From positions 3,782,001 to 3,846,000 of the forward strand of contig NZ_CP019420.1 of the NCBI RefSeq assembly GCF_001984215.1: 64,000 nucleotides of DNA, given 5' to 3'. This document shows, one piece after another, positions 1,444 through 49,635 of this stretch. Made by a program: the position numbers and the translations under genes. Each line of letters begins with the position of its first letter. Position 1 is the first letter of the stretch. This DNA comes from Mycobacterium sp. MS1601 (lineage in GTDB: Bacteria > Actinomycetota > Actinomycetes > Mycobacteriales > Mycobacteriaceae). The notes below the pieces were generated by a model, which saw only the letters and a list, made by a program, of their open reading frames with translations, searched no databases and was not told where the DNA came from.

Positions 1444-2844
1444 GTGCTGTTGGCATCTCTGAACCCGTCTGCGGTCGCCGGTGGCGCCGACATCCCGAAC
1501 GCCGTGACCGTCGGCGACACCACGCTGAGTCGCAGCGACCTGCTCGGTGCGGCGACGTCGGTCGCCGAACGGGTGGGCGGGGCGTCGCGCGTCGCCATCC
1601 TGGCCACGCCCTCGGTGACGACGGTGCTGGCGGTGACCGGGTGCCTGATTGCCGGCGTCCCGTTCGTCCCGGTGCCGCCGGACGTGGGCGTCGCCGAGCG
1701 AGCCCACATCCTGTCCGACTCGAAGGCGCAGGGCTGGCTGGGCGAGGTGCCCGACGATGCAGGCGGGCTGGGGCACATCCCGGTGCGGGTGCACGCCCGC
1801 TCCTGGCATCGTTACGCCGAGCCGCACCCCGACCGCGCCGCGTACATCATGTACACCTCCGGGACCACCGGTGCGCCCAAGGGTGTGCAGACCTCTCGAC
1901 GGGCCGTGGCTGCCGATATCGACGGCCTCGCCGCGGCCTGGCAGTGGAGCCCCGACGACGTGCTGGTGCACGGGCTGCCGCTGTTCCACGTCCACGGCCT
2001 GGTGCTGGGCCTGCTGGGGTCCCTGCGAATCGGAAACCCCTTCGTGCACACCGGAAAACCCAAGCCGGAGCTGTATGCGGCCGCTGGCGGCACCATGTAC
2101 TTCGGAGTGCCGACGGTGTGGTCACGGGTGGTTGCCGACCCGTCCGCGGCGCGGGCACTCTCAGCAGCGCGATTGCTCGTCTCCGGTAGTGCCGCGCTGC
2201 CGGTGCCGGTGTTCTCCCGCCTGGTTGAACTGACCGGACACACCCCCATCGAGCGGTACGGCAGCACCGAGTCGCTGATCACGCTGAGCACGCGCGTCGA
2301 CGGTGAACGTCGCCCCGGCTGGGTCGGTCTCCCGGTGGCGGGAGTGCAGACCCGGCTGGTGGACGAGGCCGGAGCTGATGTTCGGCACGACGGAGAAACT
2401 CTGGGGCAGTTGGTGGTTCGCGGACCGATGCTGTTCGACAAGTACCTGAACCGCCCCGAGGCCACCGCTGAGGTGCTCGACGACGACGGCTGGTACCGCA
2501 CCGGTGACATCGCCGTCATCGATGACACCGGCATGCACCGCATTGTCGGTCGTGAGTCCGTGGACCTGATCAAGTCGGGCGGCTACCGCATCGGAGCCGG
2601 TGAGATCGAGACGGCTCTGCTGGGGCATCCCGGAGTGTCCGAGGCCGCGGTGGTGGGTGTGCCCGATGACGACCTGGGGCAACGGATTGTCGCCTACGTG
2701 GTGGGAACCGCCACGCCGGAGGAGTTGATAACCCATGTCGGCGAACAGCTTTCGGCGCACAAGCGCCCACGTGAGGTGCGTCTGGTCGACGAGTTGCCGC
2801 GCAACGCGATGGGCAAGGTGCTCAAGAAGGAGCTGATGCGATGA
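1444..2844 (+). CDS. fadD36: AMP-forming acyl-CoA ligase, FadD36/malonyl-CoA synthetase (MatB)-like
   Basis: ANL-superfamily adenylating enzyme of about 466 residues. Visible motifs are the P-loop YTSGTTGAPKG, the hinge region YRTGDIAV, and the C-terminal PRNAMGK with the catalytic lysine. The central segment (LPLFHVHGLVLGLLG, FGVPTVW, ERYGSTESL, DGERRPG) resembles actinobacterial MatB malonyl-CoA synthetases more than long-chain FadD proteins, so the substrate may be malonate or a methylmalonate-like diacid (inference). The position relative to dapD/dapE matches M. tuberculosis Rv1193. GTG 1444 (V-L-L-A-S-L-N-P) is preferred over the in-frame ATG at 1411, which lies inside the divergent Nudix start. 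The stop overlaps the next ATG. Confidence 0.75.
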   Translation: MLLASLNPSAVAGGADIPNAVTVGDTTLSRSDLLGAATSVAERVGGASRVAILATPSVTTVLAVTGCLIAGVPFVPVPPDVGVAERAHILSDSKAQGWLGEVPDDAGGLGHIPVRVHARSWHRYAEPHPDRAAYIMYTSGTTGAPKGVQTSRRAVAADIDGLAAAWQWSPDDVLVHGLPLFHVHGLVLGLLGSLRIGNPFVHTGKPKPELYAAAGGTMYFGVPTVWSRVVADPSAARALSAARLLVSGSAALPVPVFSRLVELTGHTPIERYGSTESLITLSTRVDGERRPGWVGLPVAGVQTRLVDEAGADVRHDGETLGQLVVRGPMLFDKYLNRPEATAEVLDDDGWYRTGDIAVIDDTGMHRIVGRESVDLIKSGGYRIGAGEIETALLGHPGVSEAAVVGVPDDDLGQRIVAYVVGTATPEELITHVGEQLSAHKRPREVRLVDELPRNAMGKVLKKELMR

Positions 2845-4194: not shown

Positions 4195-5271
4195 GTGCTG
4201 GACTTACGCGGTGACCCCATCGCCCTGACCGCAGCGTTGGTGGACATCCCGAGCGAATCGCGCCACGAGAGTCGCATCGCCGACGAGGTGGAGAACGCGC
4301 TGCGCGGGCAGGCCTCGGGCTTCGAGATCATCCGCAACGGCAACGCCGTGCTGGCCCGCACCCAGTACGGACTGCCCACCAGGGTGATGCTGGCCGGGCA
4401 TCTGGACACCGTGCCCGCCGCCGACAATGTGCCGTCGCGCCGCGAGGGCGAGATCCTGCACGGCTGCGGCACCGTCGACATGAAGGCCGGGGACGCGGTG
4501 TTCCTACACCTGGCCGCCACCATCGACAAGCCGGCCCACGACCTGACCCTGGTGTTCTACGACTGCGAGGAGATCGAGGCCTCGGCCAACGGGCTGGGTC
4601 GCATCGAACGGGAGCTGCCGGACTGGTTGCATGCCGACGTCGCGGTACTCGGTGAGCCTTCCGACGGCTTCATCGAGGCCGGCTGCCAGGGCACCCTGCG
4701 GGTGGTCGTCAGCGCCACCGGCACCCGGGCGCACTCGGCACGATCCTGGTTGGGCGACAACGCCATTCACAAGTTGTCCGGTGTGCTGGCCCGGTTGTCG
4801 CAGTACCGTGCCCGCGACGTGGACATCGACGGCTGCGTCTACCGGGAAGGCATGTCTGCGGTGCGGGTGGACGGGGGAGTGGCGGGCAACGTGATCCCCG
4901 ACGCCGCCTCGGTGACGGTGAACTTCCGGTTTGCGCCCGACCGCACCCCGGCGCAGGCGCTCGACCACGTGCGCGAGGTGTTCGACGGCCTGGACGTGAC
5001 CATCGAACAGACCGACGCCGCCGCCGGCGCCCTGCCCGGCCTGCAGATGCCGGCCGCGGCTGCGCTGGTCAAAGCGGCGGGCGGGCAGGCCCGCGCCAAG
5101 TACGGCTGGACCGACGTCGCCCGGTTCGCCGCCCTGGGCATTCCTGCGGTGAACTATGGCCCGGGAGATCCGAACCTGGCCCACCGCCGCGACGAGCGGG
5201 TGCACGTCGGGCAGATCACCGCCGCCGTCGACATGCTGCGCGGCTACCTCACCGCAGCCGCTTCGGACTGA
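4195..5271 (+). CDS. dapE: Succinyl-diaminopimelate desuccinylase
   Basis: M20-family zinc aminohydrolase of 358 residues acting two steps after DapD, releasing succinate to give LL-diaminopimelate for peptidoglycan cross-links and lysine. Motifs are AGHLDTVP (His metal ligand and Asp), [11 protein letters not shown] (bridging Asp), YDCEEIE (catalytic Glu and metal ligand) and LGEPSDG. GTG 4195 (V-L-D-L-R-G-D-P) is chosen because family homology begins exactly there; an upstream in-frame ATG at 4117 lies inside the divergent dapD. The GTG is 47 nt from the dapD start. Matches Rv1202 in gene order. Confidence 0.92.
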
Positions 5272-5280
5272 CACTGCCGA

Positions 5281-6288
5281 TCACCTCAACGTCGTCGCGG
5301 TTTCGGTGACCAACCGGTGCAGTGCGGCGTCGGCGCGGGAGTCGCCCAACTCGGACGCATCACGCCAGGCCAGGATCGCCACGCAGTGCTGCCCGGACCG
5401 TTCGGCGGTCTGAGCGGCTTGCCTGGCCGCGGCGATCGCGCCGTGCTGGTCATGGGCCGCCGCCAACCGCCACGCCCGTGCCAATCCGAGTTCGGGGGCG
5501 AACAACGCCGACTTGGTGCCGTGCCGGGACTCTGCCCGCGACAACGCTTTTGCCGCTTCCGCCAGCTCGCCGGACCGGGCCAGCGCGGTCGCGAGCAACA
5601 TCAGTGCCAGTGGGCCCCACGAATAGCCGGTGCGATCAAGAATCGGTGCGGCCGCACTCAGCAGCTTCGCGGCCGCCGCGTCGTCACCGCGGCGCATCAG
5701 CACCGACGCCAGCAGGACGTCGGCGATCGAGGTCGCGGGTTGCCCGCCGGACGTCAGGGCCCGCGCGGTGGTGTCGGCGTCCTCGAGCGCGCCTGCCATG
5801 GTCGACGTGGTGATCCGTGCCAGCCCGATGGTGTAGCGCAGCAGCCCCGGATGCCCGGCGGCCTCGGCACGCTCGGCGAAACCCTGCACCTCGGCGACGC
5901 GGCCGACCCGCGCCGCGCACAGCGACGACGTGCTGGCCGCCCACGCCACGGCCATGTCGGAGGCCGCGGGCGCGGCGAGTACCTGTCCCGCCAGCTCCAA
6001 CGCCCGCACCGGGTTGCCGGCATTCATCGCGAAGGTGGCAAGCAGCGCGTCGACCGTCAGGCCGGCCGACCCGGCAACACGGTTGCGCACGGCACGCAGA
6101 TACGCCGTCGCCCGCTCGGGTTCACTGAGCATCCAGAACTGGTTGGCCGCTCTGGGCAGCGCCACCGCCAACAGCTGCGCCTCGGACAGGACATCGGTGT
6201 CGAGAGCCGACAGCACCTCCTCGGCCTCGCGACCACGGCCCTGCCAGGCCAACGCCTGCGCCGCCTCGGCGGCTGCGGTGATCGACAC
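5281..6288 (-). CDS. Alanine-rich helical (TPR-like) protein, function unknown
   Basis: A 335-residue soluble protein built of repeated Ala/Leu-rich helix pairs of about 35-40 residues (for example AQALAWQGRGREAEEVLSAL, LALMLLATALARSGELAEAA, AWRLAAAHDQHGAIAAARQA), the look of tetratricopeptide repeats. No catalytic motif, signal peptide or membrane segment is visible. The pattern resembles the central TPR region of large mycobacterial LuxR/MalT-type regulators, but neither an N-terminal ATPase nor a C-terminal helix-turn-helix is present, so it may be a truncated derivative or an independent scaffold. The start is a GTG at 6288, only 23 nt from the divergent log gene. It occupies the place of Rv1203c/Rv1204c, which I cannot confirm as homologues. 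Confidence 0.6.
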   Translation of the reverse strand: MSITAAAEAAQALAWQGRGREAEEVLSALDTDVLSEAQLLAVALPRAANQFWMLSEPERATAYLRAVRNRVAGSAGLTVDALLATFAMNAGNPVRALELAGQVLAAPAASDMAVAWAASTSSLCAARVGRVAEVQGFAERAEAAGHPGLLRYTIGLARITTSTMAGALEDADTTARALTSGGQPATSIADVLLASVLMRRGDDAAAAKLLSAAAPILDRTGYSWGPLALMLLATALARSGELAEAAKALSRAESRHGTKSALFAPELGLARAWRLAAAHDQHGAIAAARQAAQTAERSGQHCVAILAWRDASELGDSRADAALHRLVTETATTLR

Positions 6289-6311
6289 CGCCGGAGTCTA
6301 AGGTTTTTCCA

Positions 6312-6875
6312 GTGCGCTCCGACCAAGAATCCGACCGGCAGTGGGCCGTCTGCGTCTACTGTGCCTCCGGCCCCCGCGACCCTGAACTCCTGGCGTTGGC
6401 CACAGCTCTCGGGGCGGCAATCGCCGACCGGGGATGGACCCTGGTATCGGGCGGCGGCAACGTCTCGGCCATGGGGGCCATCGCGACGGGAGCCAGAGCG
6501 CACGGCGGCAGCACCGTCGGCGTCATCCCCAAGGCACTGGTGCATCGCGAACTCGCCGACGTCGACGCCGAAGAGCTGATCGTCACCGACACCATGCGGC
6601 AGCGCAAACAGATCATGGAGGACCGTGCCGACGCGTTCATCACGTTGCCCGGCGGCATCGGCACCCTCGAGGAACTGTTCGAGACGTGGACAGCCGGCTA
6701 CCTCGGAATGCACGACAAGCCCGTCGTGATGCTGGACCCCGGCGGCCACTACGACGGCCTGCGGGACTGGCTCTCCGGGCTGGTGGCGACCGGCTATGTC
6801 GGTGCGACAGCGCTGGATCGACTGCTGGTGGTGCGTGACGTCGAAGCAGCTCTGGACCTCTGCGCGCCCCGCTGA
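6312..6875 (+). CDS. LOG-family cytokinin riboside 5'-monophosphate phosphoribohydrolase
   Basis: A 187-residue Rossmann-like protein with the LOG hallmark LPGGIGTLEELFE (PGGxGTxxE) and the upstream SGGGNVSAMGA nucleotide-binding loop. LOG enzymes cleave N6-modified AMP to a free cytokinin-type base and ribose-5-phosphate. The M. tuberculosis gene in this position, Rv1205, is known to make cytokinins. A GTG at 6312 follows a T-rich stretch and leaves 23 nt to the divergent neighbour. It probably shares direction, but not necessarily a transcript, with fadD6 downstream. Confidence 0.85.
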   Translation: MRSDQESDRQWAVCVYCASGPRDPELLALATALGAAIADRGWTLVSGGGNVSAMGAIATGARAHGGSTVGVIPKALVHRELADVDAEELIVTDTMRQRKQIMEDRADAFITLPGGIGTLEELFETWTAGYLGMHDKPVVMLDPGGHYDGLRDWLSGLVATGYVGATALDRLLVVRDVEAALDLCAPR

Positions 6876-42204: not shown

Positions 42205-43035
42205 TCAGTGCGTGCCGGGAAGCGCCTTGGCCATCGCCGAGGAGAACAGTTTCTGGTAACCCGAGCCGGTGATGCGGACGATGACGTCGAGCACCTTGGC
42301 ATCGGGACCGACGAGCACCCTGGCCTTCTTCTTGCGTACGGCATCGAGGATGATCTTGGCCGCGCGCTCGGGGGTGGTGTTGGCCAGCTTCTTGTCGAAG
42401 ACCTGCGCCAGTTCCTTCGGGTCGAGCCCCTCGGCGGCGGTGGCGTTGCGGGCGATCGCGGTCTTGATGCCGCCGGGATGCACACAGGTCACCGCGACGG
42501 GCCGCTTCTTGGCGAGCATCTCCTGGCGCAGTGACTCGGTGAACCCGCGAACCGCGAATTTGGCTGCGTTGTAGGCGGATTGGCCTGGAACCGAGAAAAT
42601 GCCGAACAGGCTGGAGACGTTGACCACGTGGCCGTCGCCGGATTCGACGAGGTGCGGAAGGAAGGCTTTGGTGCCGTTGACCACGCCCCAGAAGTCCACG
42701 TCCATGACCCGTTCGATGTCCTTGAACTGGCTGATCTCGACGTCTCCGGTGAACGCGATGCCGGCGTTGTTGTAGATCTGGTTGACCTTCCCGAAGTGTG
42801 CTTTCACCGCGTCGGCGTAGAGCAGGAAGGCCTCGCGCTCGGTCACGTTGAGCCGGTCGGCTTTGACCGGGGCCCCGATGGCTTTGAGCTTTTCCTCGGT
42901 GACGGCCAGTCCTTCGGTGTCGACATCGCTGATGGCCAGCTTGGCTCCGCGTCGGCCCAGTTCGATGGCCAGTGCCTGACCGATACCCGATCCGGCGCCC
43001 GTGACGACGGCGACTTTCCCGGCGAAGCCCTCCAT
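42205..43035 (-). CDS. Short-chain dehydrogenase/reductase (Rv1245c-like)
   Basis: A 276-residue classical SDR. Rossmann motif VVTGAGSGIGQALA, NNAG, the catalytic Ser in VNVSSLFG, and YNAAK (Tyr and Lys) are all present, with VHPGGIKTAIA after. The C-terminal region (ILDAVRKKKARVLVGPDAKVLDVIVRI) resembles fatty-acyl or retinol-type SDRs of mycobacteria. ATG 43035 (M-E-G-F-A-G-K-V). It lies 63 nt downstream of the island amidohydrolase on the same strand and could be read through from it; in H37Rv it follows lpqZ directly. Confidence 0.9.
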   Translation of the reverse strand: MEGFAGKVAVVTGAGSGIGQALAIELGRRGAKLAISDVDTEGLAVTEEKLKAIGAPVKADRLNVTEREAFLLYADAVKAHFGKVNQIYNNAGIAFTGDVEISQFKDIERVMDVDFWGVVNGTKAFLPHLVESGDGHVVNVSSLFGIFSVPGQSAYNAAKFAVRGFTESLRQEMLAKKRPVAVTCVHPGGIKTAIARNATAAEGLDPKELAQVFDKKLANTTPERAAKIILDAVRKKKARVLVGPDAKVLDVIVRITGSGYQKLFSSAMAKALPGTH

Positions 43036-43098
43036 ACCCAACACTCCTTCGGATCGCTATTCGACTTGTGTTGAGTTTAGTCGGTACCGCCGGTATCG

Positions 43099-44097
43099 CT
43101 ACCGGCGGGTAATGGCGGATCCTGACGGCGTCGACGCCAGCCGGGGGAACAGGGTGGCCGCGGTGCTGGCCATGGCGGCGAGCTGGCCGTCGTCGAGCAC
43201 CGTCGTGTCGCGCAGGAGCTGCATGTTCGCCTCGATCACGGTATCGCCGGCCGGTGGGTAGTCCGACCCGAAGAGCACGTGGGATGCGGAGGTGGTCTCC
43301 AGCAGCGGCAACAACGAGTTGGGGTGCGCGGACAAGGCGGTGTCGTAATAGAGCCCGGCCAGTTGGCTGCGGACCTCCTCGGCGCTCAGGTTCCGGGGGT
43401 TGGGCACCCAGGGCAGCATGCCGGTGGTCGCCACCCGGGTCGCCAGTGTCGGCAGAACCCCACCGGCGTGGGCGATGATGAACCTGATGCGCGGATAGCG
43501 CCGGAACACCCCTGCGTAGAGCGCATCGATGACGGTGCGCGCAGTGTCCATGGGGAACTCGATCACCGGCCCCGGCCGTCCACACGCCAACTGGTCGAAG
43601 CCCGCGGGGTCCACCGGGTGCACGAACACCGTTGCAGCGCCGTCGTCGAGCGCGGCGAAGACCTCGTCGAAGCTGGGGTGGCCCAGGTACCGCCCGTCGT
43701 AGTTGGTGATGAGCGCGAAGCCGTCGGCGCCGAGTTCGTCTCGGGCGCGGGCGATCTCGGTCAGTGCGGCGGCAGGATCGAGCAGTGGCACGTTGGCCAG
43801 CAGTCCGAATCGGTCTGGATGCCGGGCGACCACGTCGGCGCCGAAGTCGTTGTACCGGCGGGCGGAACCGGCCGACAGCTGGTTCGGATTGGACAGCATC
43901 TGCACTCCGATCGCGTAGCTGTCCATGAACGCGATGGCCTGCTCCGGTGACCACGAGCTGGCCGGAGGCGCCAGGAAGTTGGCCCGTCGGTAGGCGGCCT
44001 CGATGTCCGGGAGCGCAGCTTCCGGTATGGGCGGCCCGTAGTGGGCATGGACGTCGACGAGGGTGCCGCCGGTGCGTCGTCGCAGGTTCGTGGGCAA
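43099..44097 (-). CDS. Amidohydrolase-related (ACMSD-type) metal-dependent hydrolase/decarboxylase
   Basis: A 332-residue TIM-barrel protein of the amidohydrolase-2 family. VDVHAHYGPP gives the first metal-binding HxH, FVHPVDPAGF and IIAHAGGVLP the later histidines, and FGSDYPPAG the catalytic Asp. This family includes decarboxylases such as ACMSD and hydrolases of ring-cleavage products. The start is a TTG at 44097 preceded by AAAGGAG; no in-frame ATG or GTG fits so well. It is the third gene of an SDR-MBL-amidohydrolase run with gaps of 16 and 33 nt, and so probably part of the TetR-controlled operon. Confidence 0.8.
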   Translation of the reverse strand: MPTNLRRRTGGTLVDVHAHYGPPIPEAALPDIEAAYRRANFLAPPASSWSPEQAIAFMDSYAIGVQMLSNPNQLSAGSARRYNDFGADVVARHPDRFGLLANVPLLDPAAALTEIARARDELGADGFALITNYDGRYLGHPSFDEVFAALDDGAATVFVHPVDPAGFDQLACGRPGPVIEFPMDTARTVIDALYAGVFRRYPRIRFIIAHAGGVLPTLATRVATTGMLPWVPNPRNLSAEEVRSQLAGLYYDTALSAHPNSLLPLLETTSASHVLFGSDYPPAGDTVIEANMQLLRDTTVLDDGQLAAMASTAATLFPRLASTPSGSAITRR

Positions 44098-44130
44098 CCC
44101 CTGCTCCTTTCCGAACAGTCGGGCGTGGTG

Positions 44131-45036
44131 TCAGCGGGGCGGGCCGGACACGACATCGGTGGGCACAGGGTGCCAGCGCGCCGTGTCCGCGTCGCACACC
44201 ACCTGCCCGAACGGCTGGTCGCCGAAGTGGATCGCGAACGCGAAGGTGTCGGGCCGGCAGAGTTCGTCGAGAAGTCGAGCCCGCGCCGCCGGCACCAGCG
44301 CCGGCATGACGTCCGGCGCGGAGCCCCATTCGGGATGGCCGAGCTGTGCCGGAACGTGGAAGGCGTCGCCGAAGGCGATCAGTCTGTTCCCGGCAGCGGA
44401 CGTGATGACATAGGACGTGTGGCCGGCGCTGTGCCCCGGAGTCACGAGCGCCCGCACGCCGGGCGCGACCTCGTCCCCATCGGAGATCAGGGTGAGATTC
44501 GGGTGCTCGCGCAGCGGGTCCAGCACCGCCTCCCGGTCGCTCGTGCCGAGCGGATGTTCCCCGCGCAGCAGCGGTACCCACTCCGCCTCGGCCATCGCGT
44601 ATTTCGCGCGGGGAAAGCTGGGTTGTCGAGACCCGCCCTCGTCGTGGGTGAACGTCCATCCCGCGTGGTCGACGTGCAGGTGGGTCAGGGCGCACACGTC
44701 GATGGCGTCGCGCTCGACGCCCAGCCCGGCCAAGATGTTGAGGAACTCTCCGCAGTCGTTGCGGCCCAGCAAACTCTCGGCGACCACCTGACCCATTCCG
44801 GCGTCGATGAGCATTGTCACGTCGGGAGATTCGACCAGCAGGCCACCGGTCGACATCGCCACGTAGCCGTCCGGCCCCAGTTCGTCGGGATGAGCGTCCC
44901 AGTATGCCTGGGGGATCGCCCGCAGGAAGGCGCGCGCGGCCAGCCACATCGCCCCGTCCACCACGTAGGTGAACGTCAGGTCGTCCAGTTGCCAACGGCG
45001 GACCGAAGCCTGAGCCGCAATGCTGCCCGGTGTCAC
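44131..45036 (-). CDS. MBL-fold metallohydrolase
   Basis: A 301-residue metallo-beta-lactamase-fold hydrolase with the metal motif THLHVDHAG (HxHxDH), GGLLVESPDVTMLIDAGMG before it, TPGHSAGHTSY and IAFGDAFH after. It is close in layout to quorum-quenching lactonases and other ester/lactone hydrolases. GTG 45036 is chosen because GGGAGG lies just upstream and it starts 16 nt after the SDR stop; the open frame upstream overlaps that gene. In the island it could open a lactone made by the oxygenases (inference). Confidence 0.82.
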   Translation of the reverse strand: MTPGSIAAQASVRRWQLDDLTFTYVVDGAMWLAARAFLRAIPQAYWDAHPDELGPDGYVAMSTGGLLVESPDVTMLIDAGMGQVVAESLLGRNDCGEFLNILAGLGVERDAIDVCALTHLHVDHAGWTFTHDEGGSRQPSFPRAKYAMAEAEWVPLLRGEHPLGTSDREAVLDPLREHPNLTLISDGDEVAPGVRALVTPGHSAGHTSYVITSAAGNRLIAFGDAFHVPAQLGHPEWGSAPDVMPALVPAARARLLDELCRPDTFAFAIHFGDQPFGQVVCDADTARWHPVPTDVVSGPPR

Positions 45037-45052
45037 GACATACCTCCCAGTG

Positions 45053-45808
45053 CTACATCTGTGCGCCGCCGCTGACCAGCAGGTGCTGGCCGCTGATCCA
45101 CCCGGCCAGGTCGCCGGCGAGATACTCGGCGGCGTCCGCGACGTCCTCTGGTCGGCCCATGCGTCCTCCAATGGGGCGAAAACCCGCGTTCATCGTCCGG
45201 TAGCGATCGTCGTCGCCGATGTCGGTGAACACCCCGGCGCCTTCGATGACGGTGGGCAGGATGGTGTTGACGGTAACGCCCCGGGTGCCCAGCTCGAGAG
45301 CGAGCACGCCGACCAGGTATCGCGGCGCGGTCTTGCTGGAACCGTAAAGGCCGACCCCGGCAAACGGACTGCAGGTGGTGCTGGACCCGATGTAGATGAT
45401 CCGCCCGTTGTCGGCCACGTGTTTGCCGGCCTTCTGCAGCGTGAAGAACGCCCCCTTGGTGTTGATCGCGAACAGTCGATCGAATTGTTCTTCGGTGACC
45501 TCGAGGGCGGGTTGATCGATGATCTCGACGCCGGCATTCGCGACGACGATGTGCACGGCATCGAAGTGCGACAGCGTGGTCTCGAAGAGCCGGTCCAGAT
45601 CAGCGGTGCTGGCGACATCGGCTTCGACGGCGATCGCGGCGCTGCCCAGTCGCTCGATCTCGGCCACCGTGGCGACGGCATTGGGCTGGTCGTCAACGTG
45701 GTTGACCACGATGCTGGCTCCGAGCGACGCGTAACGCAGTGCGATGGCGCGACCGATGCCCCGCGTCGAACCGGTGACCAGGGCCACCTTGCCGGTCAGA
45801 TCGGTCAT
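45053..45808 (-). CDS. Short-chain dehydrogenase/reductase, first gene of island operon
   Basis: A 251-residue classical SDR similar to glucose-1-dehydrogenase/3-oxoacyl-ACP reductase types: LVTGSTRGIGRAIALRYASLGA, VANAG, IIYIGSSTT (Ser), and YGSSKTAP (Tyr, Lys), ending DLAGWISGQHLLVSGGAQM. It probably oxidises an alcohol produced in the same pathway. ATG 45808 follows AAGGAG. The palindrome CTTGCGCGCAAG lies 47 nt upstream, between this gene and the TetR stop, suggesting direct repression. MBL and amidohydrolase genes follow closely. Confidence 0.88.
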   Translation of the reverse strand: MTDLTGKVALVTGSTRGIGRAIALRYASLGASIVVNHVDDQPNAVATVAEIERLGSAAIAVEADVASTADLDRLFETTLSHFDAVHIVVANAGVEIIDQPALEVTEEQFDRLFAINTKGAFFTLQKAGKHVADNGRIIYIGSSTTCSPFAGVGLYGSSKTAPRYLVGVLALELGTRGVTVNTILPTVIEGAGVFTDIGDDDRYRTMNAGFRPIGGRMGRPEDVADAAEYLAGDLAGWISGQHLLVSGGAQM

Positions 45809-45854
45809 GGGGCTCCTTGGTGGGTGGTCTCACCCGACCGTACCGAGCTCCTTG

Positions 45855-45866
45855 CTTGCGCGCAAG
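45855..45866. promoter_or_regulatory. Palindromic operator copy 1 (CTTGCGCGCAAG)
   Basis: A perfect 12-bp palindrome within the longer shared string TTGCTTGCGCGCAAGTA (45852-45868). It is placed upstream of the SDR-MBL-amidohydrolase operon. The same string occurs before the MpaB-1 gene. Confidence 0.75.
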
Positions 45867-45872
45867 TACAGA

Positions 45873-46502
45873 CTATCCGGTGGTGTTGCGCAGGCCTGAA
45901 ATGGCAATGCGCGCAGTCTGTTCCGCCAGTTCCTCGATGGAGTCACCGCCCCGATCGGGGTCGTACCACTCGGTGGTGCTGTTGCACATCCCGACGATCA
46001 GCAGGGCGTGTGTGACGGGGCGGGCGGCGAAGAAGAGTCCGTCGTGCTGGCCGGCTTCGATCACCCCGGCGACGCGCTGCACGTAGCCGAACATCCCCTT
46101 CTGCAGGGTCTCGGCGCGGTCGCCGCTCAGTTTGTCCAATTCGCGGAACTGGACGCGGAAGGTGTCTGGTTGGGTCAGTACGACGGTGACGTGGTTGCGC
46201 ACGATCTCGGTGAGTGCCCGGTCGGCGGGCAGGTCGGCGTCGAAGATCGGTTGCGACGACGAGATCATGGCCTCGCCTGCCTGTGCGATCAACTCGTAAA
46301 GGATCTCGTCCTTGGCGGGGAAGTAGTGATACACCGCCTGGCGGCGGAAGCCGAGCTCGACAGCGATCTGGTTCAGGTTGGTCTCGCGGTATCCCTGCTC
46401 GGCGAACAGCTTGGTGGCTGCCCGCAGGATGTCCCGGCGTCGCGCCACATCCTTGTGCTCCACGGGCCGCGCTTCGTGCTCCGGCCGGACGCGATCCACC
46501 AT
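45873..46502 (-). CDS. TetR-family regulator of the MpaB/SDR island
   Basis: A 209-residue regulator. The N-terminal HTH reads RRRDILRAATKLFAEQGYRETNLNQIAVELGFRRQAVYHYFPAKDEILYELI. The C-terminal domain (TEIVRNHVTVVLTQPDTFRVQFRELDKLSGDRAETL) resembles KstR2/FadR-like TetR_C domains that sense acyl-CoA-type ligands; the actual ligand is unknown. It is divergent from MpaB-1 across 107 nt that contain operator copy 2, so it should control itself and both flanks. Start ATG 46502 with an AGAGAGGG ribosome binding site. Confidence 0.88.
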   Translation of the reverse strand: MVDRVRPEHEARPVEHKDVARRRDILRAATKLFAEQGYRETNLNQIAVELGFRRQAVYHYFPAKDEILYELIAQAGEAMISSSQPIFDADLPADRALTEIVRNHVTVVLTQPDTFRVQFRELDKLSGDRAETLQKGMFGYVQRVAGVIEAGQHDGLFFAARPVTHALLIVGMCNSTTEWYDPDRGGDSIEELAEQTARIAISGLRNTTG

Positions 46503-46575
46503 CGCCGTGCCCTCTCTTCTCTATCGGCTCATCAGGCTACTTCGGTAGTGGCGCATCGCCGACCGCGACCGATCA

Positions 46576-46603
46576 TTGACTTTTGCTTGCGCGCAAGTAA
46601 GCT
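46576..46603 (+). promoter_or_regulatory. Leaderless promoter with operator copy 2 in its spacer
   Basis: A -35 element TTGACT (46576-46581) and a -10 element TAAGCT (46598-46603) are 16 nt apart, and the spacer contains the perfect palindrome CTTGCGCGCAAG (46586-46597). Transcription would start at about 46610, the A of the MpaB-1 start codon. TetR bound there would block polymerase directly. Confidence 0.65.
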
Positions 46604-46609
46604 GACGGC

Positions 46610-47860
46610 ATGGAGCTGGTGGATACCGACGAAGCGCTTCCGGGCGCGTTCGTCTACTTCGAAGACGAGAAGCGACCCGGGGCGGTCAGGCTCACCGAGC
46701 ATTTACAGAAGATCGCCGGAACCGATCTTGATCTGCCGCCGAGCGTGGTCACGGCCATGGGGCATTCGCTGGACCAGGGTGACCGGCTCGGTGATGCCTG
46801 GTACGCCGACGCCAGGAGCCGGGGCACGGTGCGCCAGGCTCGCGACGAGTTCAACACCGCGGTCGCGCGGGGCATCGACAGCATCGACGATCCATCGCCG
46901 GCGCTGGTCGCGCTCTTCGCCCGGATACACCTGGAGCCGGAATGGCTGGACTGGGATCTCTTCGACCGCGGAGCCGCCGTGTTCCGGCGCTACGGCAAAG
47001 AGCTCTACCCCTACTTCGGGATGGCGACCTTCGCCGGCTATCGCACCCCGTCGGTCACCAAACCCCTGATCCTCACCGGTGCCTACACGGGGAACTCGGC
47101 GCTCAATCGGTTCTGGGAGACCTGCAAACACTGGACCGACGTCAGTGAACCCGGGGGGATGCGGCCGGGGCGGGCGGGGTTCGTCACCTCACTGCATGTG
47201 CGGCTGCTGCACTGCATGATCCGGGCCCGCATCATCAATCACCGGGAATGGGATCGAGCTCACCTCGGCGTCCCGATCAGTCAGTTCAACATGTTCAACA
47301 CATTGATGGCCGGATCGGTCATCTCCGGCCAACAGCTTCGTTCCCTGGGATACCGCACCAGTGACGACGACATCGTGGCGATGCTGCACATGTGGCGCTA
47401 CATCGGCTTCGTCATGGGTGTCGAGACTCCGTGGTATCCGGAGACCATCGAGGACGGCTACCGGGCCATGCGGTTGATCGCCTTGGCGCAGCGTACGGAG
47501 GACAACGAGGACAGCCGAAAGCTGTGTCACTCGTTCATGGATGCCTACAAGCCGGACCCAACGGCGCGCGGCTGGTCCCGGGCGAAGGCCGAGCTGAACT
47601 ACCGCTTCCAGCTGGGGCACGCGTACTTCTACACCCCGGGGTCCTACGTGAAGTCCGGATTCCCCGATGTCGGACTGTGGCGCTTCGCTCCGCTGGTGCG
47701 GTTTGCGCCGAATTACCTTCGCGACACGGCATGTCAGCGCAGCCCCTGGGTTGCGCGGCAGGTGGACCGTCGGCACCGCGACTGGCGGCAGCGGGAACTG
47801 GAGCGGACGTTGGGGGCCGGCAAGGGTAGTTACAGTCCGGTGGAAACGTTGTCCCGTTAG
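46610..47860 (+). CDS. Oxygenase MpaB family (DUF2236) protein 1
   Basis: A 416-residue all-helical protein of the DUF2236 family, which includes the haem-dependent rubber oxygenase Lcp and fungal MpaB. Conserved regions seen are FGMATFAGYRTPS, FWETCKHWTDVSEPGGMRPG, the VRLLHCMIR helix with His201 (candidate axial haem ligand by analogy with Lcp), GVPISQFNMFNT, and MWRYIGFVMGVE. There is no signal peptide, so it should be cytosolic. The reaction is probably oxidative cleavage or oxygenation of a hydrophobic substrate; the substrate is unknown. The start lies 13 nt after the operator, consistent with a leaderless message. Its TAG overlaps the stop of MpaB-2 (TTAG). Confidence 0.82.
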   Translation: MELVDTDEALPGAFVYFEDEKRPGAVRLTEHLQKIAGTDLDLPPSVVTAMGHSLDQGDRLGDAWYADARSRGTVRQARDEFNTAVARGIDSIDDPSPALVALFARIHLEPEWLDWDLFDRGAAVFRRYGKELYPYFGMATFAGYRTPSVTKPLILTGAYTGNSALNRFWETCKHWTDVSEPGGMRPGRAGFVTSLHVRLLHCMIRARIINHREWDRAHLGVPISQFNMFNTLMAGSVISGQQLRSLGYRTSDDDIVAMLHMWRYIGFVMGVETPWYPETIEDGYRAMRLIALAQRTEDNEDSRKLCHSFMDAYKPDPTARGWSRAKAELNYRFQLGHAYFYTPGSYVKSGFPDVGLWRFAPLVRFAPNYLRDTACQRSPWVARQVDRRHRDWRQRELERTLGAGKGSYSPVETLSR

Positions 47861-49020
47861 GACCCGGAAGTCTCGTAGAGCGCAGAACCTCGCTCCTGCA
47901 ACGACATCCGAGCGGTAGCGAGGTTCTTCTGCAGTGCAGACTCCCACTGCGCCGGCTCTGCGCGCAGCGTGCGTCTGGCCGACCGCACCCGCTCGGTCGC
48001 GGTCGCGATCACGGTGTCCGCAGCTCGGGATCGGGGAATCTGGAGCTCGTCTGCCACGACGTCGCCGTGGAACATGCGCGCCAGCGACGCCAAGCCCCGG
48101 GAGCCCAGCCGCTCGGGAATGTGCAGCGCCGCGCCCAGCAGGTCGGTGATCGAGTTCAAGGTTGCGGCCGCGAGCGTGACGGACTCGTCGATCAGGGCGC
48201 CGGTGGCGTACTGCAGCAGCGCATCCACCCGAGCCGCCTGTTCGTTGTTCGAAATGCCCTGCACCAGGCGGGGATCGACGCCGAGTAGATGTGCGAGCAG
48301 CCACCAGTAGGAGTAGATGGACCGCGTCTCGCGTGAGGTCAGGGAGAATCCCATGATCTCCTCTGCGCGCAGCGAGGTGTAGGTGAAGTCCAACCAGGTC
48401 CGCGCCAGGTCAACTTGGTTGATGGCCACGCCGTGGCGGGCCTCGTCGAATCCACGGCTGCGGGCCAGTCTCCGCATGTTGGCGTGCAGTATCCGAACCT
48501 GCAGTGTCGCAATGTAACCCGGCTGTCCCGGGCGTAGGCCTCCTGGAATCATGGCGGTGGAGACCCACTTGCCGGTTTCGCGGATGCGACGGTCTGCCCC
48601 TTCGATCAGTCGCCCCGTCGTAGCGAGAACCTCCGAGATGGAGGGGGATTCGTAGACGCGGATCAGTGCGCCGGCGCTCAGCGAGATGATGTGTACGGGT
48701 GGGGGTGCGGAGTAGAACGGGAGGGACCCGGTGTCGAGCAGCTGGTCGTCGGCGAAGTCCGGCAGTGTCTCGGTGTGTCTGAGAAACTCCGCGATGGCGG
48801 CAGGTGGGTCGGCAACGGTGGCCAGGCCCGATCTGATGCCGGCATCCAGGCAGGCGCGCGCCGGACGACCGCGCACGTGAATCTCCTCGGCCACGGCATC
48901 GGCCAGGGGATCGCCGGTCTGCAGCGCCCACTGCAGCAGGTCTGCGCGGCTGTCCCCGAATTGCAGCGCGGCCCCCGCGTGGGTCCCTCTGCCGGTGGGG
49001 AAGGGCGGTCGGCCTTCCAT
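47857..49020 (-). CDS. Oxygenase MpaB family (DUF2236) protein 2
   Basis: A 387-residue second DUF2236 protein, only distantly similar to the first. It has RETGKWVSTAMIPGGLRPGQPGYI, the helix VRILHANMRR with His179 (candidate haem ligand), GVAINQVDLARTWLDFTY and IYSYWWLLAHLLGVD, i.e. the same motif order as protein 1. There is no signal peptide. ATG 49020 has AGGAG 7 nt upstream; an in-frame ATG at 49068 is an alternative. Operator copy 3 lies 60 nt upstream. The two genes converge and overlap by four bases, and may give related activities on one substrate, or a heteromer. Confidence 0.8.
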   Translation of the reverse strand: MEGRPPFPTGRGTHAGAALQFGDSRADLLQWALQTGDPLADAVAEEIHVRGRPARACLDAGIRSGLATVADPPAAIAEFLRHTETLPDFADDQLLDTGSLPFYSAPPPVHIISLSAGALIRVYESPSISEVLATTGRLIEGADRRIRETGKWVSTAMIPGGLRPGQPGYIATLQVRILHANMRRLARSRGFDEARHGVAINQVDLARTWLDFTYTSLRAEEIMGFSLTSRETRSIYSYWWLLAHLLGVDPRLVQGISNNEQAARVDALLQYATGALIDESVTLAAATLNSITDLLGAALHIPERLGSRGLASLARMFHGDVVADELQIPRSRAADTVIATATERVRSARRTLRAEPAQWESALQKNLATARMSLQERGSALYETSGS

Positions 49021-49080
49021 GCTGGCACTCCTGTTCGCCGTTGTTCCGAGCGGTTCCCTCACCACCATGCCAGATGTTTG

Positions 49081-49092
49081 CTTTCGCGCAAG
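49081..49092. promoter_or_regulatory. Palindromic operator copy 3 (CTTTCGCGCAAG, one mismatch)
   Basis: Upstream of MpaB-2. Read on the minus strand, TTACTTGCGCGAAAGCAAA matches copy 2 (TTACTTGCGCGCAAGCAAA) in all but one base, so similarity extends beyond the 12-bp core. Confidence 0.65.
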
Positions 49093-49143
49093 TAATGGCG
49101 CGGGGGACGTAACGTAGGCCCGTCTCGCGGCGATGCTCATGGC

Positions 49144-49506
49144 ATGAAGTTCACCCCGATCGCTGTGGCCGCGATGGCCGCCGGTGTCATGCTGGCCTCG
49201 GCCACTCCCGCGCAGGCCGACCCCGGTGCCGACGCCTTCCTGGCCGCCATCTCACAAGCCGGAATCACCGGTATCGACCCCGGTACCGCGGTGTCCGTCG
49301 GCCAGCAGGTGTGCCCCATGCTCGCCGAGCCCGGCCAGCGGATGGCCGACGTCGCCGCCGATGTGTCCAGTGCCATCGGTCGCCCACTCGGCCCGGCCAC
49401 CATGTTCACCGGCGTGGCCATCTCGCTGTTCTGCCCGGGAGCCGTCGCCGCCCTCGGTGACCGCATCAACAACCCGGTGATCCTGCCGGCCCTGCTCGGC
49501 ATCTAG
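49144..49506 (+). CDS. Secreted DUF732 protein
   Basis: A 120-residue small exported protein. The signal peptide KFTPIAVAAMAAGVMLASATPAQA is cut before D-P-G-A-D. The mature part DAFLAAISQAGITGIDPGTAVSVGQQVCPML is the DUF732 opening, and two Cys (VCPML, LFCPGA) are placed for a disulphide. DUF732 proteins are abundant, mycobacteria-specific and of unknown function. It is divergent from MpaB-2 with operator copy 3 in between, so the TetR might also touch it. Confidence 0.82.
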   Translation: MKFTPIAVAAMAAGVMLASATPAQADPGADAFLAAISQAGITGIDPGTAVSVGQQVCPMLAEPGQRMADVAADVSSAIGRPLGPATMFTGVAISLFCPGAVAALGDRINNPVILPALLGI

Positions 49507-49522: not shown

Positions 49523-49574
49523 TTTCTACGGCAGGGCTGTGCGGCCGCGGGCTTCGACAACCCTGCTGCAGAAA
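49523..49574. repeat. Imperfect inverted repeat, second copy of the 8987 element
   Basis: Left arm TTTCTACGGCAGGGCTG (49523-49539) and right arm CAACCCTGCTGCAGAAA (49558-49574). The right arm is identical to that at 9021-9037, and left arms are alike in 14 of 17 positions. Confidence 0.6.
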
Positions 49575-49600
49575 ACAAGAACCCTGCTGCAGAAAACAAG
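49559..49600. repeat. Perfect 21-bp tandem duplication
   Basis: AACCCTGCTGCAGAAAACAAG at 49559-49579 and 49580-49600. The second copy supplies the AACAAG at the base of the following terminator stem. Confidence 0.95.
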
Positions 49601-49635
49601 CGCGGCCGCCCCGAACGGGACGGCCGCGCTTGTTT
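49594..49635. terminator. Bidirectional terminator hairpin
   Basis: AAACAAGCGCGGCCG and its exact complement at 49621-49635 form a 15-bp stem with a 12-nt loop, with A- and T-rich ends on the two sides. It ends both the DUF732 gene and kgd. Confidence 0.85.

Follow-up and report, generated by a model that had tools for sequence, protein, structure and literature searches.

What does a block of six genes do between a short-chain dehydrogenase (SDR) gene and kgd of Mycobacterium sp. MS1601, and what controls it? The block lies in a 64,000-nucleotide (nt) stretch of contig NZ_CP019420.1 (assembly GCF_001984215.1, positions 3,782,001 to 3,846,000), here called the window, where it fills the gap between the flanking SDR gene and a DUF732 gene. 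It consists of genes for an amidohydrolase (AMH), a metallo-beta-lactamase-fold protein (MBL) and an SDR (SDR-b), followed by tetR (minus strand) and two DUF2236 genes, MPAB1 (plus strand) and MPAB2 (minus strand) (Table 1). We judge it reasonably likely that the block is a horizontally acquired, TetR-controlled catabolic cassette with three operators, haem oxygenases that would cleave carbon-carbon double bonds (C=C), and downstream enzymes that would process the products. Sequence comparison supports the operators, their link to TetR, the regulon units, the insertion, and the fold modeled for MPAB1; the cassette may let the cell break down a probably greasy aromatic compound by C=C cleavage.

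The first-pass annotation, made from the sequence alone, had reported a palindrome, CTTGCGCGCAAG, in front of three separate units, and our pattern scan bore this out: the 12-mer is perfect at 45855-45866 and 46586-46597 and has one mismatch at 49081-49092. It occurs perfectly nowhere else in the 6.83-Mb genome. With two or fewer mismatches it is not enriched in the GC-rich DNA of the window (4 found versus 5.27 expected), and with one or none its genome-wide count resembles that of the reversed-pattern control (25 versus 22; 2 of the 25 are perfect). Because the bare 12-mer was so near its control genome-wide, we adopted an extended 18-mer, TTRCTTGCNNGCAAGYAA; the minus-strand similarity beyond the 12-mer, also reported earlier, is correct. 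Operator 2 carries the 18-mer exactly and operators 1 and 3 differ from it by one mismatch each; the rest of the genome has no match with 2 mismatches and 19 with 3. The latter are background, and the total at three or fewer mismatches is 22, versus 37 for the reversed control. The motif is thus not scattered, since matches with 0 or 1 mismatch occur only at the three island sites. We dismissed the genome's third core match (C1:1014162), which differs from the 18-mer at three positions and falls within an open reading frame (ORF) of 583 amino acids (aa).

The tetR product scores 54 bits against PF00440 (cut-off, 24) and 79.1 bits against PF17932 (TetR_C_24; cut-off, 26.4), and, as befits the TetR family, a palindromic operator lies near its own gene and is conserved in relatives. 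Its PDB matches were too general to indicate a ligand. The close named relatives of this strain belong to Mycolicibacterium or Mycobacterium. At E ≤ 1e-40, a cut-off on which the set of TetR-bearing genomes depends, TetR relatives are present in 11 of 396 genus genomes, its own included; an order-wide search at E ≤ 1e-35 found TetR in 2 of 298 genomes, both within the genus. We read 11 related TetR loci of 16.2 to 20 kb each: ten from the E ≤ 1e-40 search plus L049 (L046-L048 and L072-L074 represent one set of contigs, counted once). The palindrome accompanied the related tetR genes throughout: the exact core, CTTGCNNGCAAG, was found at 11 of 11 loci, with 18 copies in 211,832 bases; 29 permuted half-site palindromes averaged 0.28 copies in the same bases (maximum, 2). 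The consensus of 21 sites, those of the window included, is CTTGCTTGCGCGCAAGCAAG. Eleven distant TetR loci (L050-L060; 24 to 38% identity), from among the 15 of the search that gave L049, stand outside this count; among them, the 12-mer was found only in L050, as a one-mismatch match ∼4.7 kb from its TetR.

Palindromes are targets for several transcription factors, and the sites could in principle belong to another regulator of which TetR is merely the neighbor. We consider this highly improbable, because the exact site tracks TetR genome by genome: the exact 18-mer is present in 9 of the 396 genus genomes, all nine of them TetR-bearing, and in none of the 385 genomes without this TetR (Fisher p 9e-17, where species are not independent), and the reversed 18-mer pattern was found in 2 of the 396. 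The two TetR genomes without the exact 18-mer, G263 and G389, have cores that differ from it in their flanks. Moreover, loci L079 and L080 keep both TetR and the site, with no MPAB1 neighbor detected, which points to TetR as the binder, and the helix-turn-helix recognition stretch FRRQAVYHYF is identical in all 12 aligned TetR sequences. A 17-mer search that allowed 3 mismatches told us little across 198 genomes; judged by eye, the 17-mer was mostly below its reversed control among the matches listed. Co-occurrence and site conservation, both from comparative genomics, strongly support the dedicated one-TetR, three-operator regulon that the first-pass annotation had predicted, and this TetR very probably turns its own cassette on and off, as a repressor, through three matching sites.

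TetR would act as a repressor rather than an activator. Operator 2 lies between a TTGACT and a TAAGCT that were read by eye from the letters, which is a classical position for repression.

In relatives, the putative regulon units keep company with TetR to different extents. MPAB1 relatives (49 to 81% identity) adjoin TetR in 9 of the 11 loci, and of 297 genomes, the 6 that have an MPAB1-like gene at E ≤ 1e-90 all bear TetR. MPAB2 relatives (E ≤ 1e-60) are present in 5 of 376 genomes; an upstream site was found in all three that bear TetR, with 1, 3, and 2 mismatches to the 18-mer and a common variant core, CTTGCGCGAAAGCAAAC, while in those without TetR (G290 and G092) no match came closer than 5 mismatches across the 4.1 kb read. 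The two sites that are 3 and 2 mismatches off (L136 and L137) show the core variant as at operator 3. SDR-b, MBL, and AMH are found together in L072 and L074, and L049 has MBL and AMH but no SDR-b; the trio is absent from the stretch read in the remaining 8 of the 11 TetR loci. Of the window's genes, L076-L078 have only the operator, MPAB1, and tetR.

That the six genes interrupt an otherwise compact arrangement is also borne out. The gap between the aligned parts of SDR and kgd is ∼44 to 606 bp in 11 of 15 same-genus relatives, compared with 6.6 kb here; in the remaining four, no kgd was seen in the stretch read, so that adjacency was counted for 11 only. Because SDR and kgd are close together in 11 of the 15, positions 43045-49143 are, on gene order, an insertion relative to those 11, in 4 of which the DUF732 gene sits between SDR and kgd. 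Comparative genomics thus strongly supports the earlier reading of an accessory island. We infer that the island was acquired horizontally. Its ends show no break in G+C content (0.64 to 0.70 inside, 0.63 to 0.68 around), and, by eye, there is no flanking repeat pair of mobile-element type among the repeats listed for the window.

The gene calls of the first pass were upheld by Pfam (Amidohydro_2, Lactamase_B, adh_short, TetR_N/TetR_C_24, and two MPAB_Lcp_cat domains). MPAB1 and MPAB2 both exceed the PF09995 gathering cut-off of 23 bits, and the genome encodes seven DUF2236/MpaB-type proteins in all; to our knowledge, few members of this family have known substrates. We set the MPAB2 start at 49020 rather than at the ORF limit of 49140, because the latter would place operator 3 inside the ORF; the match in L074 agrees. 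By sequence, the rubber oxygenase Lcp is the only PDB relative found for either protein, and the MPAB1 model adopts the rubber-oxygenase/t-anethole-oxygenase fold, with Lcp as its best fold match. Three haem-pocket residues, R167, T171, and H201 in MPAB1 numbering, are present in 36 of 36 aligned sequences (MPAB1, MPAB2, and 34 of 120 listed MPAB1 relatives, of 181 found); by sequence alignment they correspond to Lcp R164, T168, and H198, whose roles are described in the part of the Lcp study available to us (PMC5522427). The earlier reading of both as oxygenases fares unevenly: for MPAB1 it draws on modeled fold and pocket residues, for MPAB2 on the aligned residues only.

Are these then rubber (polyisoprene) oxygenases, and is the island a latex-degradation locus? 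The position of Lcp as sole PDB sequence relative and best fold match speaks for this, but we find it quite improbable. All 36 aligned sequences have Glu (Glu170 in MPAB1) where Lcp has its distal haem ligand, Lys167, though that lysine is only 59% conserved among Lcps according to the same excerpt (PMC5522427). Unlike the three Lcps tabulated in the available part of another source, which are Tat exported (PMC6311187), MPAB1 and MPAB2 have no Arg-Arg within residues 1 to 35 and no strongly hydrophobic stretch of 19 residues near the N terminus, as judged by a crude test. Glu170 may mark a distinct MPAB clade, and MPAB1, given its modeled fold, its haem-pocket residues, and the lack of an obvious export signal, is probably not a rubber degrader but a cytosolic haem oxygenase that cleaves C=C bonds.

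The unit behind operator 1 encodes three enzymes, with one terminator-like site inside SDR-b (terminator scan). AMH scores 96.3 bits against PF04909 (gathering cut-off, 26.4); its PDB relatives include 2-amino-3-carboxymuconate semialdehyde decarboxylase (ACMSD) and the 5-carboxyvanillate and gamma-resorcylate decarboxylases, and matches 68 to 74% identical to it lie in TetR loci L072, L074, and L049. Methyl parathion hydrolase, a reconstructed lactonase/dihydrocoumarin hydrolase, and acyl-homoserine lactone (AHL) lactonases are among the PDB relatives of MBL, which falls below the NCBIfam AHL lactonase equivalog cut-offs (AidB, 75.2 of 360 bits; YtnP, 69.6 of 425; AiiA, 42.7 of 375). SDR-b has matches of 78 to 80% in L072 and L074; its PDB matches were too general to indicate a substrate.

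Taken together, the further genes in the neighborhood of the kindred loci hint at hydrophobic and perhaps aromatic substrates. L074 has in addition a Zn-alcohol dehydrogenase, a second MBL protein, an FAA-type hydrolase, a DoxX-like protein, and a cutinase gene, as well as an aldehyde dehydrogenase close to MPAB2; an FAD aromatic-ring hydroxylase is found in both L072 and L074, and a P450 in L072. Between 3094 and 15402, L079 has two exact cores and genes for a P450, an alcohol dehydrogenase (ADH), an SDR, an Amidohydro_2 protein, an FAD hydroxylase, a glyoxalase/dioxygenase-superfamily protein, an FAA hydrolase, a CMD protein, and a multicopper oxidase. This set resembles an aromatic ring-cleavage cluster, and it lies near a TetR that is 55% identical. 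In L080, two amidohydrolase-like genes belong to a run headed by a site, and G370 and G389 each have a site ahead of a lone gene of the Mce family (Mce4_CUP1/MlaD), with 62% identity between the two encoded proteins. Other neighbors were uninformative on substrate: DUF3375, MFS, and thioredoxin-like proteins (L075); an HD-domain protein and a hydrolase (L076); and DUF1800/DUF1501 (L049). At ∼5,000 in L134, upstream of its MPAB1, we saw by eye a variant palindrome, GCTTGCTTGTAAGCAAGG, that falls outside the core pattern.

Table 1. Features of the island, its borders, and the Mce genes of two relatives (window coordinates unless a locus is named)
Feature	Position	Strand	Description
Flanking SDR	42205-43044	-	Left border of island
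AMH	43099..44097	-	ACMSD-subfamily amidohydrolase, third gene of SDR-MBL-AMH unit; PF04909
MBL	44131..45036	-	Metallo-beta-lactamase-fold hydrolase, lactonase/esterase-like; PF00753
SDR-b	45053..45808	-	Short-chain dehydrogenase; follows operator 1 as first gene of its unit; PF13561/PF00106
Operator 1, TTGCTTGCGCGCAAGTAC	45852..45869	.	43 bp upstream of SDR-b start, in the gap to the tetR stop
tetR	45873..46502	-	TetR-family regulator divergent from MPAB1; PF00440 and PF17932
Candidate MPAB1 promoter, TTGACT-16 nt-TAAGCT	46576..46603	+	Encloses operator 2; read by eye
Operator 2, TTGCTTGCGCGCAAGTAA	46583..46600	.	Between tetR and MPAB1, ending 9 bp before MPAB1 ATG; genome's only exact 18-mer
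MPAB1	46610..47860	+	Candidate haem oxygenase; DUF2236/MPAB_Lcp_cat (PF09995), 44.7 bits
MPAB2	47857..49020	-	Second DUF2236 haem oxygenase candidate; PF09995, 60.7 bits (scanned as longer ORF)
Operator 3, TTGCTTTCGCGCAAGTAA	49078..49095	.	57 bp upstream of MPAB2, 48 bp upstream of divergent DUF732 gene; one mismatch
DUF732 gene	49144-49506	+	Right border of island; then kgd
Mce gene of G370	L132, site 1504, gene 1601-2815		Next gene aldehyde-dehydrogenase-like by eye
Mce gene of G389	L134, site 5174, gene 5263-6495		

At the right border, 48 bp separate operator 3 from the start of the DUF732 gene, which adjoins SDR in 5 of the 15 same-genus relatives; the insertion may have put this gene under TetR control. 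Between it and kgd, an exact 21-bp tandem duplication, AACCCTGCTGCAGAAAACAAG, runs into a 20-bp hairpin that is 95% complementary (49559-49600 and 49594-49635); the hairpin is probably a terminator.

Might the cassette serve to detoxify a natural product or xenobiotic (a mycotoxin, plant phenolic, or antibiotic) rather than to feed the cell? TetR repressors often guard detoxification functions, the small versions in L076-L078 have none of the window's other enzymes detected alongside, and the MBL relatives include organophosphate and lactone hydrolases. Near the larger versions, however, lie genes for P450, ring-hydroxylase, and dioxygenase-type enzymes and for Mce uptake, which are more typical of catabolism, so that we regard detoxification as a serious but unlikely alternative.

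Several observations weigh against a TetR-controlled catabolic cassette as we propose it. Operator 3 is imperfect, with one mismatch, and since three mismatches alone are background, the argument for the MPAB2 sites of relatives is carried by their position and common variant core. In G263, the MPAB1-like gene (40% identity) is on a separate contig, of which the 4.2 kb read contain no site, and an automatic consensus promoter scan, which demands a closer −10 match, reported no promoter. MPAB1 is distant from the solved C=C-cleaving enzymes (12 to 15% identity). The window itself contains none of the P450, FAD, and dioxygenase-type genes, which belong to kindred loci, and most of them have no site shown directly in front; the accessory genes also vary so greatly that a single substrate for all loci is unlikely.

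For the cassette itself, we infer an inducer, a chemistry of C=C cleavage drawn from fold and neighboring genes, the order of steps that the first-pass annotation had proposed, and a class of substrate as follows. A TetR dimer would bind the palindrome CTTGCTTGCGCGCAAGCAAG at the three operators and repress SDR-MBL-AMH, MPAB1 and probably tetR itself, and MPAB2, until an inducer, either substrate or product, releases it. MPAB1 and probably MPAB2 would then act as cytosolic b-type haem oxygenases on a small hydrophobic molecule, probably one with an aromatic ring or an alkenyl substituent, and split it at a C=C bond into carbonyl products. Of the other enzymes, the SDR would act on the carbonyl or alcohol, MBL on an ester or lactone by opening it, and the ACMSD-type enzyme on the acid by decarboxylation or hydrolysis. 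A bolder version, which we put forward tentatively and rather doubt, is an undescribed portable TetR-MPAB module in which cytosolic, Glu-for-Lys MpaB-type haem oxygenases open alkenyl side chains of hydrophobic aromatics (phenylpropenes, stilbenes, or prenylated phenols); in some relatives, entry would be via dedicated lone Mce proteins, and ring hydroxylation and cleavage would fall to interchangeable cargo under one operator. Either way, an operator predicted to 20 bp offers a handle for finding the inducer, and hence a hint to the substrate class of the MPAB clade, and the locus illustrates compactly how a single regulator and its operator can stay the same while cargo genes change between species.

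How does this compare with known systems? Solved Lcp structures (5o1l and 5o1m) share 14 to 15% identity with MPAB1, which differs in having no obvious export signal and Glu at the distal Lys167 position. The t-anethole oxygenase of Stenotrophomonas maltophilia (8s1j) has the fold of the MPAB1 model at 12% identity; a sequence-profile search of MPAB1 against the 8s1j chain gave no match up to E 1. In rubber degraders, lcp-linked TetR regulators likewise tie a TetR to a DUF2236 oxygenase gene, a likeness by description only. MpaB of mycophenolate biosynthesis and the nitrile-rubber oxygenase Nro1 are described, in the excerpt available, as MpaB-family enzymes that cleave C=C bonds of prenyl or polymer chains, with Nro1 (323 aa, membrane bound) suggested to carry b-type haem (PMC12724181). 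These too resemble the MPAB proteins by description only, and membrane-bound Nro1 differs from the probably cytosolic MPAB1.

The open-licence PMC literature that we searched held nothing on the letters of the motif or on an MpaB oxygenase with Mycolicibacterium, and no DUF2236-Mycobacterium title on such a regulon; a local TetR regulon is ordinary in kind, and this one is new as an instance within that literature. Its nearest counterpart in layout is the KstR2 regulon of mycobacteria, in which, as far as the excerpt goes, one autoregulated TetR acts with a palindrome in three promoter regions near the regulator gene and controls catabolic genes (PMC3068626). The window sites are not KstR2 operators, however: the KstR2 motif given there is AnCAAGnnCTTGnT, whereas they read CTTGCnnGCAAG, with the half-sites in opposite order. 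In the same excerpt KstR2 is cholesterol linked and highly conserved among actinomycetes (PMC3068626), in contrast to the TetR of the window, which 11 of 396 genus genomes carry.

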